Under the pieces are notes generated by a model that saw only the letters and a list, made by a program, of their open reading frames with translations, was not told the DNA's origin and ran no database searches. Below, piece after piece: positions 9,077 to 17,029 of a DNA stretch of 37,271 nucleotides (position 1 is its first letter; every line of letters begins with the position of its first letter). This stretch comes from Crocinitomicaceae bacterium. GTDB lineage: Bacteria; Bacteroidota; Bacteroidia; Flavobacteriales_D; Crocinitomicaceae. Both the position numbers and the translations under genes were made by a program. Where the stretch lies: assembly GCA_021738405.1 (NCBI GenBank), contig JAIPCC010000015.1:1-37271 (forward strand), read 5' to 3'.

Positions 9077-9084
9077 TAACTTTG
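9077..9084 (+). promoter_or_regulatory. -7 promoter element for the phosphodiester glycosidase gene
   Basis: TAACTTTG is a perfect TAnnTTTG. The alternative TTG start at 9082 falls inside it, which favours the ATG at 9097 as the true start (12 nt downstream). Confidence 0.5.
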
Positions 9085-9096
9085 AATAAAGAATAT

Positions 9097-9957
9097 ATGT
9101 CAAGCTTGTTTCGCTTTTTTGCCCTTTGTTTTGCTACGCTGCTGTTGCAGGCCTGTTCCTACGGCCAACCTGCGCCAGAAATGGCAGCGCCAGATTATTC
9201 CAATTGGGTTACGCTCACCAAAGGCATGGAGTACAGAGAAATCGCGGCGCCCGTCAAATCTTTCATCGGCGATTCAAAATTGTCAATTTTGCGCATGGAT
9301 CCCTCGCAGTTCCGCTTTGATTTATTCACTGCAACGCAATTCGATTCTGTGCCCAAAGACGTTTCCACTTGGGCAGATACCTTTGATTTATTGGTGGCCT
9401 TCAACGCCGGTATGTACAACTTGGCTAGGCCGCTGCAGAGCCGCGCTTACTTGCAATCTGGCGACCATTATAACAACGCTAAGCTTCTTGAAAACTTCAA
9501 CCTCATGTTGGCTTTGGGCCCGAAACCCAACACCAACCGTTCCAATATTGAAGTCCTCGACCTCACCTGTGCCAATTGGGAGCAAGAAAAAAATAATTTC
9601 AGTGGTTTTGCCCAAGGCTTGCGCATGATCGATTGCAATGCGAGCCCCATGAACTGGCAAAAGAAAGTACAGTCTTGCAGCATGCTTGTGGCTGCCGAAG
9701 ACGAAAAAGGTTGGTTTTACCTCATTTTTACGCGCTCGCCTTATACGCACAATCAAATGATTGGTTTTATGAAGCAGATGCCTGGCGGGCTCCACGATGC
9801 CATTTATTTAGAGGGCGGCCCTGAAACCAGTTTGCTCATAGATGTCAATGGCCATTGCATAGAAAAAGTAGGTTCTTGGGTTTCAACTACCTGGGAACGC
9901 GACGACAACAACCGTTTTTGGCGCCTACCCAATATTGTCGGGATCCGCAGAAACTGA
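9097..9957 (+). CDS. Phosphodiester glycosidase (NAGPA/DUF2233) family lipoprotein
   Basis: 286 residues from the ATG at 9097. An N-terminal hydrophobic stretch ends in a lipobox (TLLLQAC), so it is a lipoprotein. The body matches the NAGPA/DUF2233 fold: an early strand around SILRMDPSQFRFDLFTAT, the core FDLLVAFNAGMYN, then FAQGLRMI and the conserved late segment DAIYLEGGPETSLLI. Family members hydrolyse GlcNAc-1-phosphodiesters or related exopolysaccharide and teichoic-type linkages. The substrate here is not determinable. The upstream TTG (9082) lies within the -7 element and is rejected as start. A hairpin terminator lies about 125 nt downstream. Confidence 0.85.
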   Translation: MSSLFRFFALCFATLLLQACSYGQPAPEMAAPDYSNWVTLTKGMEYREIAAPVKSFIGDSKLSILRMDPSQFRFDLFTATQFDSVPKDVSTWADTFDLLVAFNAGMYNLARPLQSRAYLQSGDHYNNAKLLENFNLMLALGPKPNTNRSNIEVLDLTCANWEQEKNNFSGFAQGLRMIDCNASPMNWQKKVQSCSMLVAAEDEKGWFYLIFTRSPYTHNQMIGFMKQMPGGLHDAIYLEGGPETSLLIDVNGHCIEKVGSWVSTTWERDDNNRFWRLPNIVGIRRN

Positions 9958-10110: not shown

Positions 10111-10186
10111 ATTTTGTCAAAATGGACTTATGACATCCATAAAAAGATGTTATATGAATCCTACTATTTATGAATAGTGTTGCTAT

Positions 10187-10194
10187 TATTTTTG
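10187..10194 (+). promoter_or_regulatory. -7 promoter element for the TetR-exporter operon
   Basis: TATTTTTG is a perfect TAnnTTTG, 15 nt before the ATG at 10210. The upstream GTG at 10177 precedes this element, so the shorter start is preferred. Confidence 0.5.
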
Positions 10195-10209
10195 CAACAA
10201 ATTACTTTT

Positions 10210-10878
10210 ATGGATCTAGTTGATCGTTTTCAGATTCCCGTCCTCGAAGCAATCGCACTGCGCAATCCGCAAGGCACGCAATTAGGTCAGCGCATCATTG
10301 AAGGCAGTATTTTTTTGATTGACGAACTCGGCTTTGAGCAGTTTACTTTCAAAAAGCTCGCACAGTCGGTCGGTACAACAGAAGCATCGGTGTATCGCTA
10401 TTTTGCCAGTAAGCAAAAGCTGCTTTTGTATTTGATCAATTGGTATTGGGGGCGCTTGGAGTGCCGCTTGTTGTTGCAGACGCAAGGTGGCTCAGTGAAA
10501 GAGCGTTTAGAGAAAGCGCTAGAGTTGGTGCTTATTCTGAAGGCCACTTCTTTGTCTTTTTCCAGCGAGAAACGGCTGCAGCATATTGTCATTCATGAAG
10601 CGCCGAAAGTATTTTTAACCAAGGCCGTTGACAGCGACCACCAAACTGGTTACCATTCCATTTACACTGAAATCGTGCGCTATCTTTCTGACTTAGTGCG
10701 CGCGTACCAGCCGGCTTGTAAGTATCCTGAAATGTTGGTGAGTACGCTACTAGAAGGCAGCTTGCAGCAGCGTTTTTTTAGTCAGCACCTGCCCGAAGTC
10801 ACCAATGCCTCCGAACAAGAAGATGCGGTGGCTATTTTTTATACACAATTATTTTTTAGCTTCCTCGACCATGAATAA
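10210..10878 (+). CDS. TetR/AcrR family transcriptional regulator
   Basis: 222 residues from the ATG at 10210. The N-terminal helix-turn-helix is clear: ILIEGSIF-type helix 1, then DELGFEQFTFKKLAQSVGTT and EASVYRYFASKQKLLLYLI (recognition helix and the YxxFxxKxxL signature). The C-terminal ligand-binding part is helical and unlike well-known subfamilies. It is the first gene of a tight operon; its last 8 nt overlap the start of the ABC exporter gene. That strongly suggests it controls this exporter, probably binding near the promoter at 10187. The GTG at 10177 used by a longer reading frame lies upstream of the -7 element. Confidence 0.9.
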   Translation: MDLVDRFQIPVLEAIALRNPQGTQLGQRIIEGSIFLIDELGFEQFTFKKLAQSVGTTEASVYRYFASKQKLLLYLINWYWGRLECRLLLQTQGGSVKERLEKALELVLILKATSLSFSSEKRLQHIVIHEAPKVFLTKAVDSDHQTGYHSIYTEIVRYLSDLVRAYQPACKYPEMLVSTLLEGSLQQRFFSQHLPEVTNASEQEDAVAIFYTQLFFSFLDHE

Positions 10879-12505
10879 CGACGTCACCAAACCATTTGAC
10901 CGCTTTTGGGCACTGCTCAAGCCCGACAGCAAAGACATCTCAGATATTTATTTGTTTGCCATTATTGGTGGCGTGCTGAGTCTTGGCTTACCCCTGGGTA
11001 TTCAGGCGATCATCAATTTCATTCAGGCCGGAAAAGTGAGCACCTCTTGGTTTTTACTCGTGGGTCTGGTGGTTTCTGCCATTGGTTTTTCGGGCTACAT
11101 GAATATTGCGCAGCTGCGCATCACCGAAAGCCTGCAACAGCGCATCTTTGCGCGCTCGTCTTTGGAGTTTGCCACGCGCATTCCCAAAATTCAGCTTCGC
11201 GAACTACTGCTGCGCTATGCCCCAGAATGGACCAACCGCTTTTTTGACACCCTCACCATCCAAAAAGGCATCTCTAAATTGCTCATCGATTTTACGGCGG
11301 CTTCATTGCAAATCCTCTTCGGTCTGATTTTGCTCTCGTTTTACCATCCGTTTTTCATCATTTTTGGCTTTGCACTCTTACTTTTGCTCGTTTGGATTTT
11401 TCGCGTGACGGCCAAACGTGGCTTTGTCACGAGCTTACAAGAGTCAAAGTATAAGTATAAAGTAGCCAATTGGCTCGAGGAAATTGCGCGCAACCGCATG
11501 ACCTTCAAGCACCTGGGCAGCAATGGTATTTTATTGAAGCGCACCGATGACTACCTGCAGGGTTATCTCAAATCGAGGGACGCACACTTCAAGGTACTGG
11601 TGCAGCAATACATTTACTTGATCGGTTTTAAGGTTTTAATTGCGCTGGCTTTACTGATTATCGGCGGCCTGCTTGTGCTGAACCAACAAATGAATATTGG
11701 CCAATTTGTAGCGGCAGAAATCATCATTGTATTGGTCCTGAATTCAGTAGAAAAATTGATTGTGAGCCTCGAGATGGTTTATGATGTACTCACCGCAATC
11801 GAAAAAATTGGCGAAATCACTGATTTACCATTGGACATGCAAGAAGGCTTGATTTTAGAACCAAAGACAGCGCTTAACATCGAAATAGACCAATTGGAAT
11901 ACCAAACAACTTGGAGCCGCACGCCGCTCTTGAGCAATCTGACGTGTCGTTTTGAGGCAGGCAAGTTTTATCACATCCAAGATTTCAAAGGCAATCAGGC
12001 CCAAGGCTTATTTCTTATGATTGCCGCTATGGCACTTCCCAATAAAGGCCAAGTCCTGATCAATGGCGTCCCGACCAGTAATTTGCAACCTGAACATTTA
12101 CGCGCGCAGATTGCCAGCCTCTCTCATCATGACCAGCTGATCTACGGAACGGTGTTGGAGAATATCGCGATGGGCCGCAATTATAGCATCGAAGAAGTAC
12201 TCGCCGTTGCTACAGCAGTTGGTTTAGACCAGCATGTCTTAGCGCTCACTGACGCATACCAGACCGTGCTCAACCCAGAAGCGAGTACCTTGGATAGACA
12301 GCTTATCACATTAGTTATTTTGTGCCGCGCGTTGATAGCGCAACCAGCTGTATTGCTCTGGGATACCCACAACCATTATTTACCCAACGACCAACTAGAA
12401 GTTGTTTTGAATCATTTGCAGCAACATTTCAAAGGAACTGTCCTTTTGGCCAGTATTCATGAAAATAATTTATCGCTCATCCACGAAAAATTGATTTTAT
12501 GTTAA
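10871..12505 (+). CDS. ABC exporter-like protein with degenerate nucleotide-binding domain
   Basis: 544 residues from the ATG at 10871, inside the TetR 3' end. Residues about 20-310 are a six-helix type I exporter membrane domain (LFAIIGGVLSLGLPLGIQ, FLLVGLVVSAIGFSGYM) like those of peptide/toxin exporters without the peptidase domain. Residues about 335-544 align with an ABC ATPase, but its motifs are lost. Walker A is DFKGNQAQG (371-379; Lys replaced by Ala377). The Q-loop region reads SLSHHDQ (Gln replaced by His). The signature is LDRQL (474-478) instead of LSGGQ. Walker B is VLLWDTH with Thr499 replacing the catalytic Glu. Asp498, a His at about 530, ENI and CRAL remain. ATP hydrolysis by this protein is unlikely. 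The operon supplies HlyD and TolC partners. Confidence 0.85.
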   Translation: MNNDVTKPFDRFWALLKPDSKDISDIYLFAIIGGVLSLGLPLGIQAIINFIQAGKVSTSWFLLVGLVVSAIGFSGYMNIAQLRITESLQQRIFARSSLEFATRIPKIQLRELLLRYAPEWTNRFFDTLTIQKGISKLLIDFTAASLQILFGLILLSFYHPFFIIFGFALLLLLVWIFRVTAKRGFVTSLQESKYKYKVANWLEEIARNRMTFKHLGSNGILLKRTDDYLQGYLKSRDAHFKVLVQQYIYLIGFKVLIALALLIIGGLLVLNQQMNIGQFVAAEIIIVLVLNSVEKLIVSLEMVYDVLTAIEKIGEITDLPLDMQEGLILEPKTALNIEIDQLEYQTTWSRTPLLSNLTCRFEAGKFYHIQDFKGNQAQGLFLMIAAMALPNKGQVLINGVPTSNLQPEHLRAQIASLSHHDQLIYGTVLENIAMGRNYSIEEVLAVATAVGLDQHVLALTDAYQTVLNPEASTLDRQLITLVILCRALIAQPAVLLWDTHNHYLPNDQLEVVLNHLQQHFKGTVLLASIHENNLSLIHEKLILC

Positions 12506-13863
12506 ATCTCTCTCCACAAAATCGCAATCAGATCGATACAGAAGGTCTTGTGGCCACACAAATGCTCAATAAGGCACCTAAAAAGCTGTTGCGCAATACC
12601 ATCTATGCGCTTTTAATTTTAAGCCTCGTTATTCTCTTTTTACCTTGGACACAAAACATCCGCTCGAATGGTCAGGTACTCACTTTGCGTCCTGAACAAC
12701 GTCCGCAAACCATCAATGCGCTCATCGGTGGTCGGATCGAAAAATGGTTCGTGAAAGAAGGCGACCTCGTCCGGCAAGGCGATACCATTATGTTTATTTC
12801 CGAAATCAAGGACGGTTATTTTGACCCTCAATTGGTCGGCCGCAGCGAAGATCAGCTCAAAAGCAAGGAGCTCAGTGTGGTTTCATATAGCGACAAAGTA
12901 CAGGCGCTGGACGCGCGCATCGACGCGCTCATTGCAACGGGTAAATTAAAGGTGCAACAAGCGCGCATCAAGGCCCAACAAGCTCAGCTCAAACTGAAGT
13001 CGGATAGCATTGAGAACCACGCTGCCAACCTCAATTACCAAATTGCCAAAGACCAATACGAACGCTTCGAGAAACTTTACGAAAGAGACCTCAAGTCCAA
13101 GACAGAAGTAGAAACCAGAAAGGTTGCCATGCAGCGCGCACAGGCTTCCATGATTGGCGCTCAGCAGAAGTTTTTGCAAAGCCGCAACGACATCATTGAC
13201 GCCAAGGTTGAATTGAATGCCGTCGAAACTAAATTTCAGGATGAGGTGTCTAAAGCTGAATCCGAAAAATTTACCGCACTCTCGAGTATGTACGAGGCTG
13301 AAATCGATGTCAGCAAAATGCAAAGTCAAGTGGCGAATTATTCCATTCGAAACGGGATGTATTATATTTTGGCCCCACAAGATGGCCGCATTGCCAAAAC
13401 TTTATCCAGCGGCATCGGCGAAACCATTAAACAAGGGGCAGCCATCGCGACCATCATGCCGACCAACTACGACCTCGCGGTAGAAATGTACGTCAGACCG
13501 ATGGATTTACCGTTGCTTCAGGTGGGGCAGCACGTGCGCATTCAGTTCGACGGTTGGCCTGCAATTGTATTCTCTGGCTGGCCCAATACCAGTTACGGCA
13601 CCTATGGCGGAACCGTCTTTGCGATCGATCAGTTTGCTAATGAGAATGGTGAGTTTCGCGTATTGGTGGCACCAGATGCGAAGGAGCATAAATGGCCAGA
13701 GGCCTTAAGAGTAGGTGGAGGTGCTTACGCCATGCTCTTGCTCAACGACGTGCCCATTTGGTACGAACTCTGGCGAAACGTAAATGGCTTCCCGCCAGAC
13801 TACTACAAAGCCAAAGTGCCAGATATGAAATCCAAAACAAAATCTATTAAGAATGAGAAATAA
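12499..13863 (+). CDS. HlyD family membrane-fusion (periplasmic adaptor) protein
   Basis: 454 residues. A cytoplasmic N-terminus is followed by one membrane helix (residues about 34-54, IYALLILSLVILFLPW). Next comes a lipoyl/biotin-like half-motif (GGRIEKWFVKEGDLVRQGDTI), a long alpha-helical coiled hairpin (about 115-275, rich in Gln/Lys/Ala/Glu), the second lipoyl half (ILAPQDGRIAKTLSSGIGETI), and a beta-barrel domain (VGQHVRIQFDGWPA). It bridges the inner-membrane exporter to the outer-membrane TolC channel. The start codon overlaps the ABC stop by 7 nt, and its end overlaps the next gene by 11 nt. Confidence 0.92.
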   Translation: MLNLSPQNRNQIDTEGLVATQMLNKAPKKLLRNTIYALLILSLVILFLPWTQNIRSNGQVLTLRPEQRPQTINALIGGRIEKWFVKEGDLVRQGDTIMFISEIKDGYFDPQLVGRSEDQLKSKELSVVSYSDKVQALDARIDALIATGKLKVQQARIKAQQAQLKLKSDSIENHAANLNYQIAKDQYERFEKLYERDLKSKTEVETRKVAMQRAQASMIGAQQKFLQSRNDIIDAKVELNAVETKFQDEVSKAESEKFTALSSMYEAEIDVSKMQSQVANYSIRNGMYYILAPQDGRIAKTLSSGIGETIKQGAAIATIMPTNYDLAVEMYVRPMDLPLLQVGQHVRIQFDGWPAIVFSGWPNTSYGTYGGTVFAIDQFANENGEFRVLVAPDAKEHKWPEALRVGGGAYAMLLLNDVPIWYELWRNVNGFPPDYYKAKVPDMKSKTKSIKNEK

Positions 13864-15250
13864 GTTCGGCATCCTCGGCTTGCTCTTTTGTGCCCTCACG
13901 AGTGTGTGGTCGCAGGACAACATCATGCGCCCCGAAGCTTTTATGCTGCAAGTACTCGAAGGGCATCCGCTCGCCAAGCAAGCCAAGCTCATTCCCGAAT
14001 TTGCCCAAACTTATGTACTCAAGGCCCGCGGCGGTTTTGATCCTAAATTGGCTTATGACCTCTCCCAAAAATACTACGGAGACAAAATGTATTACAGCTT
14101 GTCCGATGCCCAGCTCAAGGTACCCACTTGGTATGGTTTGAGCGTCCAAACGGGCCTGGAACAAAACAGGGGAGTATACTTAGATCCGCAAGGCCTCACG
14201 CCCCAAAACGGCTTATGGTATGGCGGGCTAAGTGCACAGCTTGGGAATGGTTTGCTCATCGATGAGCGCCGTGCAGAATTGCAGAAAGCCAATGTTTATG
14301 TTCAAAGTAGCCAACTCGAACAGCGCTTGGCGCTCAATGAACTAGTCTTAGAGGCGGGCTACGCGTATTGGGATTGGTATTTGCAATACAATTCAGGTCA
14401 AGTACTCAGAGAAGCGCTCGCTGTTGGGGCTGTTCGGCTCGATGCCATGCGCCAGATGGCCGAACTTGGTGATCGCCCGGTGATAGACACCGTTGAGGCC
14501 GCCATCCAATACCAAACCAGGGCTGCAGCACTTGCAGATCAAGAGGCAAAATTAGCGGTAGCCACCGCGTTTTTGAACCGCTATTTATGGAAGCCTGACG
14601 GCACGCCCCTCGAGCTCAACCCCGCTACACAACCACTTGCGGCTGCAACACTCGTTGGCCAAGCGCCAAAGCCAATTTATACAGGTGCTATCGATTCTAT
14701 GGTAGCACAGCATCCTTATTTAGGTATTCTTGACTATAAGCTCGATGTCTTAGCCATTGAAAAACGCTATAATCAAGAGCAGCTGAAGCCGCAAATAGAA
14801 TTGAAGTACAATTTTTTGAATGAACCCATTCAATACAACCCCCTGGCACAATTCTCTATCAACGATTACAAATGGGGCGTTTCGGCCCAAATGCCTTTGT
14901 TTTTGCGCAAGGAACGCGCGGCTGTTCAACAGACCAAATTGAAAATAGAGCAAACCACTTTCGAAAGACAAGACCGAATGGCCGAGCTCACGGCTAAAAT
15001 GCTTTCCGCCCGTGCTGAATACCTCAATGCGCAAAAGCAATTAATCATCTTTACGGAGAATGCTGCAAGCACAAAGAAACTGTTGGCTGCCGAACTCAAT
15101 TTATTTGAGACTGGAGAAAGCTCGCTTTTCATGGTCAATATGCGCGAAAGCGCTGCGTTCGTTGCGGCCTTAAAGGTATTTGAATACCAGGCCAAATGCG
15201 AGCAGTTATGGCTCAAATGGGAGTTCTTACAAGCTAGCTTAGTGAGATAA
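13853..15250 (+). CDS. TolC family outer-membrane efflux protein
   Basis: 465 residues with a signal peptide (MRNKFGILGLLFCALTSVWS). The remainder has the TolC/OEP pattern of two repeats of long helices: QSSQLEQRLALNELVLEAGY, YWDWYLQYNSGQVLREALAV, and later KLKIEQTTFERQDRMAELTA and NAQKQLIIFTENAASTKKLL, ending with the L..FETGESSLFMVNMRE motif typical of OEP proteins. It forms the outer-membrane exit duct of the tripartite exporter. Its start lies inside the HlyD gene. Its 3' end overlaps the convergent SbtA-like gene by 17 nt. Confidence 0.9.
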   Translation: MRNKFGILGLLFCALTSVWSQDNIMRPEAFMLQVLEGHPLAKQAKLIPEFAQTYVLKARGGFDPKLAYDLSQKYYGDKMYYSLSDAQLKVPTWYGLSVQTGLEQNRGVYLDPQGLTPQNGLWYGGLSAQLGNGLLIDERRAELQKANVYVQSSQLEQRLALNELVLEAGYAYWDWYLQYNSGQVLREALAVGAVRLDAMRQMAELGDRPVIDTVEAAIQYQTRAAALADQEAKLAVATAFLNRYLWKPDGTPLELNPATQPLAAATLVGQAPKPIYTGAIDSMVAQHPYLGILDYKLDVLAIEKRYNQEQLKPQIELKYNFLNEPIQYNPLAQFSINDYKWGVSAQMPLFLRKERAAVQQTKLKIEQTTFERQDRMAELTAKMLSARAEYLNAQKQLIIFTENAASTKKLLAAELNLFETGESSLFMVNMRESAAFVAALKVFEYQAKCEQLWLKWEFLQASLVR

Positions 15251-16193
15251 CGCTGTAATAAAGCGGCATTCCAATCGCGATATTGAAAGGGAAGGTCAGG
15301 CCTAAGGCCATCGGAATATACAAGCCCGGGTCTGCCTTGGGCGCAGCCAAGCGCATCGCTGCAGGAACCGCAATATAAGAGGCGCTGGCTGCCAAAACAG
15401 CAAATACAAAACGATTCGAAACATCAGCCGTCACAAACTGTGAAAGCCAAGCCACCACTATGCCGTTGAGCGCCGGAATCAAAAGTGCAAATGCAGCCAT
15501 TGCCCAACCGTGCGTCTTGAAAGACTTGATGCGACGAGCCGTTGTCATGCCCATTTCAAGTAAGAAGAGCGCTAAAAATCCTTTGAAGATGTCCGTTGTA
15601 AAAGGCGCAATATCTGCCGCCTGCTTGCTATCTGAAAGCAAACCAATGACCAAGCTACCCATGATCATTAAAACACTGCCGTTGGCCAAAGAGTGTCTGA
15701 GCAGTTCGGGTAAAGAAAACTTTGTATCGTTATTTTCATAGATGCGCAGCAGTAAGACACCCACAATGATGGCAGGGAACTCCATAAAAGCCATGACCGC
15801 CACCATGTGTCCGTTGAAGGTCAAGTTTTGCAATTCCAAAAACGAAAGCGCTGCCACAAACGTTACCGCACTCACGGAGCCATATGCCGCTGCAATGGCT
15901 GCCGCATTCGAAATGCCCACACGCTTTTTGATAATAAAAAAACTGTAAAGCGGAATGCAAGCTGCAATGGCCATTCCAAAGACCAAAGACCACGAAATTT
16001 CTGAAGTCCAGGGGCTGTGTTGGAGTTCTTGCCCGCCTCTGAAGCCAATGGAGAACAAAAGGTATAGCGATATAAATTTGAAGGAGGACTCCGGAATTTC
16101 GAGGTCACTTTTGATCAAAACGGCAACAATGCCGAGTAAAAAGAACAGGATAGTAGGGTTGCTGAGGTCGTGCGATAAAAAGTCTAAGTTCAT
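15234..16193 (-). CDS. SbtA-like sodium-dependent bicarbonate permease
   Basis: 319 residues with about ten hydrophobic helices. It matches the SbtA (DUF897) family: N-terminal NPTILFFLLGIVAVLIKSDL, FISLYLLFSIGFRGG, the first AAYGSVSAVTF repeat signature, FMEFPAIIVGVLLL, FKGFLALFLLEMGMTTARR, and the second half VLAASASYIAVPAAMRLA. SbtA imports bicarbonate with sodium in cyanobacteria; homologues in heterotrophic bacteria are presumed to do the same for anaplerotic carbon fixation. It is the last gene of a minus-strand set with the DUF6671 protein (20 nt upstream) and a small helical protein, divergent from a LysR regulator. Confidence 0.88.
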   Translation of the reverse strand: MNLDFLSHDLSNPTILFFLLGIVAVLIKSDLEIPESSFKFISLYLLFSIGFRGGQELQHSPWTSEISWSLVFGMAIAACIPLYSFFIIKKRVGISNAAAIAAAYGSVSAVTFVAALSFLELQNLTFNGHMVAVMAFMEFPAIIVGVLLLRIYENNDTKFSLPELLRHSLANGSVLMIMGSLVIGLLSDSKQAADIAPFTTDIFKGFLALFLLEMGMTTARRIKSFKTHGWAMAAFALLIPALNGIVVAWLSQFVTADVSNRFVFAVLAASASYIAVPAAMRLAAPKADPGLYIPMALGLTFPFNIAIGMPLYYSVISLS

Positions 16194-16213: not shown

Positions 16214-17029
16214 TTAGGGATTACAATGCGGGCAATATTGCGGATCTTCCGCCAACAGATCCTTTCTTTTTTCAATCGTTTGATGCTGGCAATGTGCGCA
16301 GCGATAGTTGAGATATGCATGCGTATTGGTTGCCTGTTTGCACCAAGCGCAGAGAAGCTGACCACTACGCTCAACAACTGAAAAGTCGGGTGCTGCGCAA
16401 TTCGGACAGCTGCTCTGCATGCGTCGAATTAGGTCTTGGCCAACTGCAGCAATAGTTTGTTGTCTTTTGGGATTCATGTGCGCCCGCAGGTCAGTTTCAA
16501 GCACCCATTTTGGGTGTTTTTGCAGCAATGGCAACAGTTCCTCTTCTTTTGTAAGGCCTTTGGCGATGACCTCACCGTTGTTGGCGTCTTTTAAAACCAA
16601 ACCTTGTACACCAAATTGAATGCTTGTCAAGAAATCAGTTAATTGCAAACTTCGGAAATCCAACTGCTGATGGCAAAGATCCATACTGACGCTGTGGCCA
16701 TATATTTCTAGGTTCTGGTCTAGGTCAATATACACAAGCCATTCTTCATTGACGTTCAGAAAGGGGCTGGCTGGATGAGGCCCAAATGAACCTTCGCTGG
16801 CAAGTCCTTGACGCTGATTGGCATGGGCCATTCCGGCGAGGCATTTTTCTTTGACCGTTTGCCGCGGACCTTCAATTCTTGGTGTAGTGCCGCAAAATGT
16901 ACCAAACTTGTCTGTGTCAAAGCCGAACGGCACAAAGAGTTCAACGCTAAGGGGTTCAAACAAAGGCTGAAGAATTTGCTCCTTAAGATGCTTGCTGCTG
17001 AGTAACAACTGAGATGGAAACATGGCCAT
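16214..17029 (-). CDS. DUF6671 family protein with two C-terminal zinc ribbons
   Basis: 271 residues (an alternative ATG two codons later, at 17023, is equally good). The first 190 or so are a globular domain with FGTFCGTTPRIEGPRQTVKE, EGSFGPHPASPF and NEEWLVYIDLDQ, which I recognise as the DUF6671 pattern. The C-terminus has four CxxC pairs at residues 208/211, 227/230, 244/247 and 266/269, enough for two zinc-ribbon modules. No catalytic role is known to me. It overlaps the upstream small gene by 47 nt and is 20 nt from the SbtA-like gene, so all three appear to be one operon. A link to inorganic carbon uptake is inferred from position only. Confidence 0.8.
   Translation of the reverse strand: MAMFPSQLLLSSKHLKEQILQPLFEPLSVELFVPFGFDTDKFGTFCGTTPRIEGPRQTVKEKCLAGMAHANQRQGLASEGSFGPHPASPFLNVNEEWLVYIDLDQNLEIYGHSVSMDLCHQQLDFRSLQLTDFLTSIQFGVQGLVLKDANNGEVIAKGLTKEEELLPLLQKHPKWVLETDLRAHMNPKRQQTIAAVGQDLIRRMQSSCPNCAAPDFSVVERSGQLLCAWCKQATNTHAYLNYRCAHCQHQTIEKRKDLLAEDPQYCPHCNP

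Follow-up and report, generated by a model that had tools for sequence, protein, structure and literature searches.

A Tripartite Exporter of Bacteroidota Whose ABC Subunit Has a Degenerate, Putatively Non-catalytic ATPase Domain

The window (the whole 37,271-nucleotide stretch of Crocinitomicaceae DNA analyzed here) encodes an ABC exporter subunit with a well-preserved membrane domain (TMD) and a nucleotide-binding domain (NBD) stripped of almost all of its catalytic residues, and comparison with homologues indicates that this loss of the ATPase is old, shared, and graded. Our preferred reading, which we hold at roughly an even chance, is that the gene belongs to a tripartite exporter in which the membrane domain exports together with HlyD and TolC, with no ATP hydrolysis by the window protein and perhaps driven by ions. 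ATP hydrolysis is the defining property of ABC transporters, and whether ABC membrane domains can transport on ion gradients alone has been debated on the basis of truncated forms of LmrA and MsbA. A family whose ATPase has been disabled by evolution, and in one clade removed, with the membrane domain and its partners retained, would make the ion-gradient question directly testable.

The operon consists of four overlapping genes, TetR-ABC-HlyD-TolC, all on the + strand of the window, which comes from a genome of 2.16 Mb and 99.7% completeness. They encode a TetR-family regulator (10177..10878; Pfam TetR_N, 38.8 bits), the ABC exporter half-transporter (10871..12505; 544 amino acids, identified from its open reading frame, Pfam, and alignment, with an NBD predicted to be non-catalytic by its motifs), an HlyD-family periplasmic adaptor (12499..13863; 454 amino acids; HlyD_3, 56.9 bits; TIGR01843, 85.9 bits, under the cut-off), and a TolC-family outer membrane factor (13853..15250; 465 amino acids; OEP, 88.4 bits). 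The ABC frame runs from an ATG at 10871 to a stop at 12505 and overlaps both the TetR stop (10878) and the HlyD start (12499), and TolC starts at 13853, inside HlyD, whose stop is at 13863. The preliminary description's intact operon and 544-residue open frame overlapped on both sides are both borne out. An alternative in-frame start at 10805 would lengthen the protein to 566 residues; 10871 is preferred because homologues support it.

By fold and descent the protein is a member of the ABC exporter superfamily, an ABC_membrane domain (47.1 bits, above the Pfam cut-off) being followed by an ABC_tran fold. The ABC_tran match scored 24.6 bits against a cut-off of 25 and begins only at profile position 27, and therefore the Walker A part is missing from it; the motifs by which an ABC exporter is recognized functionally, namely, an intact Walker A, LSGGQ, and the Glu of Walker B, are not complete. 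Together, the ABC, HlyD, and TolC genes make up the gene set of a type I secretion system. Pfam detected no peptidase domain in the ABC protein and no recognized secretion substrate among the eight window proteins scanned. The TetR gene suggests that the operon serves induced small-molecule efflux.

Motif columns were set by alignment to two half-exporters that the same genome encodes and whose motifs are canonical. The membrane domain (residues 1 to 326; 10871..11848, + strand), delimited by long helices in an AlphaFold2 model and by conservation in the 52-sequence alignment A1, precedes the fast-evolving degenerate NBD (residues 327 to 544; 11849..12502, + strand). Within the NBD, on the same strand, DFKGNQAQG (residues 371 to 379; 11981..12007) stands at the site of Walker A, GxxGxGK(S/T); the Q-loop reads SLSHHDQ (residues 416 to 422; 12116..12136), with H419 in the Gln column; LDRQL (residues 474 to 478; 12290..12304) occupies the LSGGQ site; Walker B and the D-loop read LLWDTHNHYLP (residues 495 to 505; 12353..12385), with D498 kept, T499 for Glu, and P505 for the D-loop Asp; and the H-loop reads LASIHEN (residues 526 to 532; 12446..12466), with I529 in the His column. 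What is missing, namely, the Walker A Lys and Ser/Thr, Q-loop Gln, LSGGQ, catalytic Glu, D-loop Asp, and H-loop His, comprises the residues needed for nucleotide binding and hydrolysis, and D498 is the sole catalytic-motif residue left. A histidine one residue off the H-loop column, H530, is replaced by D or N in the close relatives L039 to L041 and L059. The substitutions at Walker A, the Q-loop, LSGGQ, and the Walker B Glu that the preliminary description had noticed hold against the canonical half-exporters, whereas the accompanying statement that every catalytic motif had been lost is slightly too strong because D498 is retained; it is correct for all other motifs.

Sequencing error is an unlikely cause of these changes because separate public contigs (L036 to L043 and L059) have degenerate motifs identical or closely similar to those of the window; the ABC protein of one of them, the Crocinitomicaceae contig L036, is 95% identical to the window's. 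More widely, 98 of 150 genomes of the window's taxonomic family contain a homologue at an E value of ≤1e-20, and a scan of public genomes returned 406 relatives. The best 80 of the 406, representing 79 distinct loci, are titled as Bacteroidota, save one Polynucleobacter MAG contig (L103); a cultured carrier is Olleya aquimaris DSM 24464 (L083). This contig, labelled Polynucleobacter meluiroseus, carries an exporter with Crocinitomicaceae-type motifs plus HlyD and TolC and is probably misbinned. The 79 loci and 30 proteins from genomes of the taxonomic family (window included) form a set of 109 proteins, with some duplicates, in which not one (0/109) has a complete set of ATPase motifs. The Walker A Lys and Ser/Thr are present in 67/109 and absent in 42/109; both Walker B acids survive in 5, Gln in the Q-loop column in 4, His in the H-loop column in 6, and SG in the signature in 1 (L024). 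Where the contig leaves room, HlyD follows the ABC gene in 104 of 105 loci (the exception is L069), TolC is present in 69 of 69, and a TetR homologue lies upstream in 87 of 104. Judged from these alignments, motif loss beside HlyD and TolC, usually with TetR, is recurrent across Bacteroidota, which is the pattern that the preliminary description proposed to look for by aligning homologues.

Constraint on the membrane domain is much stronger than that on the NBD. Between the window protein and its counterparts in two genomes of the same genus, G145 and G084, TMD identity is 67.0% and 63.3%, respectively, and NBD identity is 26.8% and 25.7%; the values for the close genome G065 are 95.6% and 85.5%. 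The orthology of the four other half-exporters of the window genome was checked by an all-against-all comparison; relative to G145 and G084, these proteins are 54 to 79% identical in the TMD and 55 to 73% in the NBD, and their TMD minus NBD difference is −19 to +12 points versus +38 to +40 here. In alignment A1, 59 of 62 invariant columns fall within the membrane domain, in keeping with its earlier characterization as well preserved, and the mean majority fraction is 0.70 in the membrane domain versus 0.39 in the NBD. The dN/dS ratio is 0.008 to 0.026 for the membrane domain (estimable in 7 of the 15 pairs listed) and 0.03 to 0.10 for the NBD (estimable in 5 of the 15), dS being saturated in the other pairs. 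By these ratios the NBD is under purifying selection and not in free drift, so it still does something, possibly binding a ligand of some kind. Fast evolution of the NBD could also be taken as a sign of local decay or of a pseudogene, but the recurrence of these motifs, in identical or similar form, on separate public contigs, the open frames, the purifying selection, and the intact operons make such decay scarcely credible, and the description of a conserved gene rather than debris stands.

AlphaFold2, which had been suggested as a further check, predicts that the degenerate NBD folds: the model of the window protein has a mean pLDDT of 85.1 and a pTM of 0.74, and the NBD is well predicted to about residue 530, with a tail at pLDDT 60 to 66. 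Foldseek matched the model to PCAT1, TM287/288, TmrAB, HlyB, and MsbA, with TMq values of 0.87 to 0.90 to the PCAT1 core structures 8vox and 8voz. A folded NBD with a dN/dS of 0.03 to 0.10, together with the retention of a DFKGNQAQG-like loop in the window's closest relatives, would also suit a cryptic use of nucleotide, in which the altered domain would use contacts of a new kind to bind a nucleotide or some other ligand and would act on the membrane domain as an allosteric switch. The loop is, however, wholly different (DSSxSxN-type) in neighbouring lineages, and NBD identity is only 26 to 27% to the two same-genus genomes; we consider cryptic nucleotide use very unlikely.

The preliminary description had offered a partner ATPase encoded elsewhere as one source of power. 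The degenerate subunit would then pair in trans with another half-exporter or with a free-standing ATPase, an arrangement with ample precedent: a review of degenerate sites in type I exporters deals, in the portions relevant here, with transporters that have one degenerate and one canonical site, commonly as heterodimers or two-NBD proteins (PMC7756269). The phrase "two degenerate NBS" is absent from that review. Candidates exist in the window genome (G000), where the ATPase motifs of four other half-exporters are complete or nearly so: A and D are canonical, the signature of B reads LSTGQ, and in C the catalytic Glu is replaced by Asp. All four, however, have orthologues at 89 to 95% identity in G022, a genome of the same genus with neither the exporter nor HlyD. 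Matches to PF00664 number 5, 6, 5, 6, 5, 6, 5, and 4 in the carriers G000, G065, G084, G145, G136, G127, G139, and G121, counts that should include the degenerate protein, and 4, 5, and 4 in the non-carriers G022, G100, and G132. Matches to ABC_tran (E value of ≤1e-8) number 21 and 25 in the carriers G000 and G065 versus 24, 24, 27, and 24 in the non-carriers G022, G132, G100, and G053. No dedicated partner ATPase was found adjoining the operon or peculiar to carriers in the few genomes compared. A neighborhood search with the window ABC protein as the only query revealed a second similar piece in just 1 of 109 loci (L104, about 4 kb off, 20% identity), 30 of the 109 loci spanning about 1.5 kb or less per side. 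Further, a mixed dimer would be left with two incomplete composite sites because the degenerate subunit lacks both Walker A and LSGGQ, and nine homologues (among the matches listed) contain no NBD that could pair. So small a sample of genomes is still compatible with a partner that is shared rather than dedicated, but this comparison lends a partner no support, and we regard a heteromer as distinctly unlikely. Two of the window genome's half-exporters, L182 (G000:C22, with Asp for the catalytic Walker B Glu) and L181 (G000:C3, with LSTGQ), are possibly the halves of a heterodimer, the pairing being a guess.

Wider sampling by way of the adaptor, in which HlyD was found at an E value of ≤1e-40 in 75 of 296 phylum genomes and 60 of 76 HlyD places were examined, revealed four grades of ATPase loss among the relatives. 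In grade (a), a distant clade of 17 rows, most of 700 to 840 amino acids, Walker A and both Walker B acids are kept, with the H-loop His in 15 of 17 rows and the Q-loop Gln in 0 of 17; the signature is LSTGQ, close to LSGGQ, in three rows and more altered in the others. These proteins may be active as ATPases, and their retention of these motifs makes it quite plausible that the ancestral protein was an active ATPase. Grade (b), to which most members belong, keeps Walker A without the remaining motifs. Walker A is lost in grade (c), the window's Crocinitomicaceae-type clade of 16 rows (SH-aLRT, 100), and elsewhere in L153 with L211, L200, L210, and L201. Grade (d), in at least nine genomes, consists of the membrane domain alone, in open frames of 334 to 361 amino acids that end soon after TM6. 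A class-level scan detected homologues in 191 of the 395 genomes of the class, and among the matches listed nine are TMD-only (L150, L154, L157, L158, and L202 to L206); HlyD and TolC adjoin the gene in all nine (9/9). A 353-residue frame in G682 that looked TMD-only was left out of the count, as it ends at the contig end. The suggestion of a distinct exporter class needs refinement: the losses are shared across the family, but because 67 of the 109 proteins keep the Walker A Lys and Ser/Thr without the other motifs, the window represents a late step in a graded loss and no uniform class.

The tree (100 rows, membrane-domain columns) was built by a quick method, with SH-aLRT as its sole measure of support and with an outgroup that is very distant; neither its root nor the direction of its earliest changes is certain. 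The nine TMD-only rows form a single clade (SH-aLRT, 99), and several independent origins of this form were rejected on that ground. The Walker A-negative label requires six changes, at least four of them forced by well-supported branches; the rows L147, L199, and L200 were scored as negative yet keep Lys in the column, and L201 lies on a long branch. Left out were L173 and L175, which are HlyD loci without an ABC frame, and, from the tree, other ATPase frames in L167, L170, and L172. The HlyD-TolC pairs at L173 and L175 are preceded by a frame of about 400 amino acids with no match to ABC or TetR queries. Relatives of about 700 to 840 amino acids (L147, L155, L156, L159, L160, L162, L163, L165 to L172, L174, L176 to L179, and L199) are extended at the N terminus by a region that precedes the membrane domain; no convincing Pfam domain was recognized in this region of the two proteins scanned (L147 and L199).

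Relatives also occur on plasmids of Sphingomonadales. Walker A is absent in all seven records examined (L201 and L212 to L217) of 15. In L201, L214, L215, and L216, the annotation places TolC and either HlyD or a lipoyl-type adaptor next to the exporter gene, and the corresponding region of L212 carries no annotation. An IS3 transposase is annotated beside the degenerate exporter gene on the plasmids L213 (Sphingopyxis sp. 113P3) and L217 (Sphingobium sp. TKS); the exporter frame of L213 is cut short.

Given a dead motor in the window protein and some distant relatives without a motor, this branch of ABC pumps may work free of ATP. The TMD-only proteins are, however, a separate clade, and for that reason their properties need not apply to the window protein. 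An operon with no evident motor, and nine TMD-only loci (among the matches listed) that retain just the membrane domain, HlyD, and TolC, could also point to a passive or structural role: the membrane domain would be an anchor, gate, or selectivity filter for the HlyD-TolC conduit, and substrates would move downhill or leave from the periplasm, no step at the inner membrane being energized. An anchor should hardly need a membrane domain so strongly constrained, its transmembrane charges included, and we consider a passive role unlikely.

Among those charges, an acidic residue in TM6, E283 (FVAAEII; 11717..11719, + strand), is kept in all grades: 9/9 TMD-only, 16/16 Crocinitomicaceae-type, 47/48 Walker A-positive, and 16/17 distant-clade rows. 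TM6 of the window protein also holds a conserved E294-K295. In both half-exporters used for comparison, Thr stands in the position of E283 and Gln in that of E294, and Lys at 295 occurs in one of them. E283 is a candidate for ion coupling by inference and no proof of it because the distant clade shares it; as a marker of ATPase loss it was rejected, being present also in 16 of 17 distant rows that bear Walker A and B. In the second intracellular loop (ICL2), F212 is kept in 47/48 Walker A-positive, 15/16 Crocinitomicaceae-type, and 1/9 TMD-only rows, a pattern softly consistent with NBD docking. It is a soft marker because the distant NBD-bearing clade has Phe in only 12/17 rows (Tyr in 3 and Val in 2) and 5/9 TMD-only rows have Tyr. 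Weaker conservation of the whole ICL2 in TMD-only forms was rejected (0.61 versus 0.61 to 0.65).

Under the preferred reading of export without ATP hydrolysis by the window protein, the working unit would be the membrane domain with HlyD and TolC. A homodimer of the membrane domain would alternate access without hydrolysis and feed the HlyD-TolC conduit; the energy would probably come from a proton or other ion motive force, through the conserved TM6 charges E283, E294, and K295; and the window NBD could act as a folded cytoplasmic clamp or scaffold, docked still via ICL2. Export that is not ATP-driven at this domain was the second option of the preliminary description and is the one favored here. 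There is a reported precedent in exporter membrane domains that lack the NBD: as given in the sections of the two papers drawn on here, the LmrA-MD homodimer is a secondary-active translocator whose delta-pH dependence is abolished by E314A in TM6 (PMC2704374), and ethidium transport by MsbA-MD followed delta-pH, with an efficiency below that of full-length MsbA (PMC4979069). Unlike these laboratory truncations, the TMD-only forms described here are natural and occur in at least nine genomes. More tentatively, and with the balance leaning somewhat against it, we propose that in a natural, Bacteroidota-wide lineage, with relatives on Sphingomonadales plasmids, a tripartite pump once driven by ATP has come to be driven by ions (secondary-active), and that living intermediates would record the loss of catalytic residues, then of nucleotide binding, and, in one clade, of the whole ATPase.

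The system resembles the type I secretion exporters (HlyB, PrtD, and LssB) in operon logic, ABC_membrane fold, and HlyD and TolC homology; TIGR03375, TIGR01846, and TIGR01842 are among the best NCBIfam matches of the window protein, and HlyB (8dck) resembles its model with a TMq of 0.89. It differs in that the 25 NCBIfam scores listed, out of 46, are far under their cut-offs and in its apparently non-catalytic NBD. PCAT1 and other bacteriocin or peptide exporters provide the best PDB matches by sequence and fold (8vow and 8vox), but PCAT1 is a peptidase-containing transporter with an intact Walker A in the alignment. TmrAB, TM287/288, and TAP are similar in fold and likewise tolerate non-canonical ATPase motifs; as far as the sources consulted describe them, they combine one degenerate with one canonical site, whereas here 0 of 109 proteins are complete and no dedicated partner was found in the genomes compared. 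No paper on this degenerate exporter family was found among the open-licence papers listed, which is weak evidence of absence, and the word "Bacteroidetes" is absent from the first 300,000 of the 747,799 characters of a review of tripartite systems (PMC8277102). In these bacteria, operons counted as ATP-driven type I secretion systems may not be such, and genes annotated as "ABC transporter ATP-binding protein" may not deserve that annotation.

Three genes near the operon have kept company with it in other genomes. A DUF6671 gene (16214 to 17029, − strand, in the window) accompanies the operon at short distance in 19 of 109 loci, in 5 of which (L047, L048, L052, L054, and L074) it is directly 3′ of TolC on the same strand, and is possibly linked to the exporter in function. 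A strong homologue of the bicarbonate transporter Sbt_1 (15234 to 16193, − strand; Pfam, 379 bits) is convergent to TolC, a position kept in close relatives. Upstream of the operon, a gene at 9082 to 9957 (+ strand) has a weak match, below the Pfam cut-off, to NAGPA (phosphodiester glycosidase), and its position relative to the operon is also kept in close relatives.
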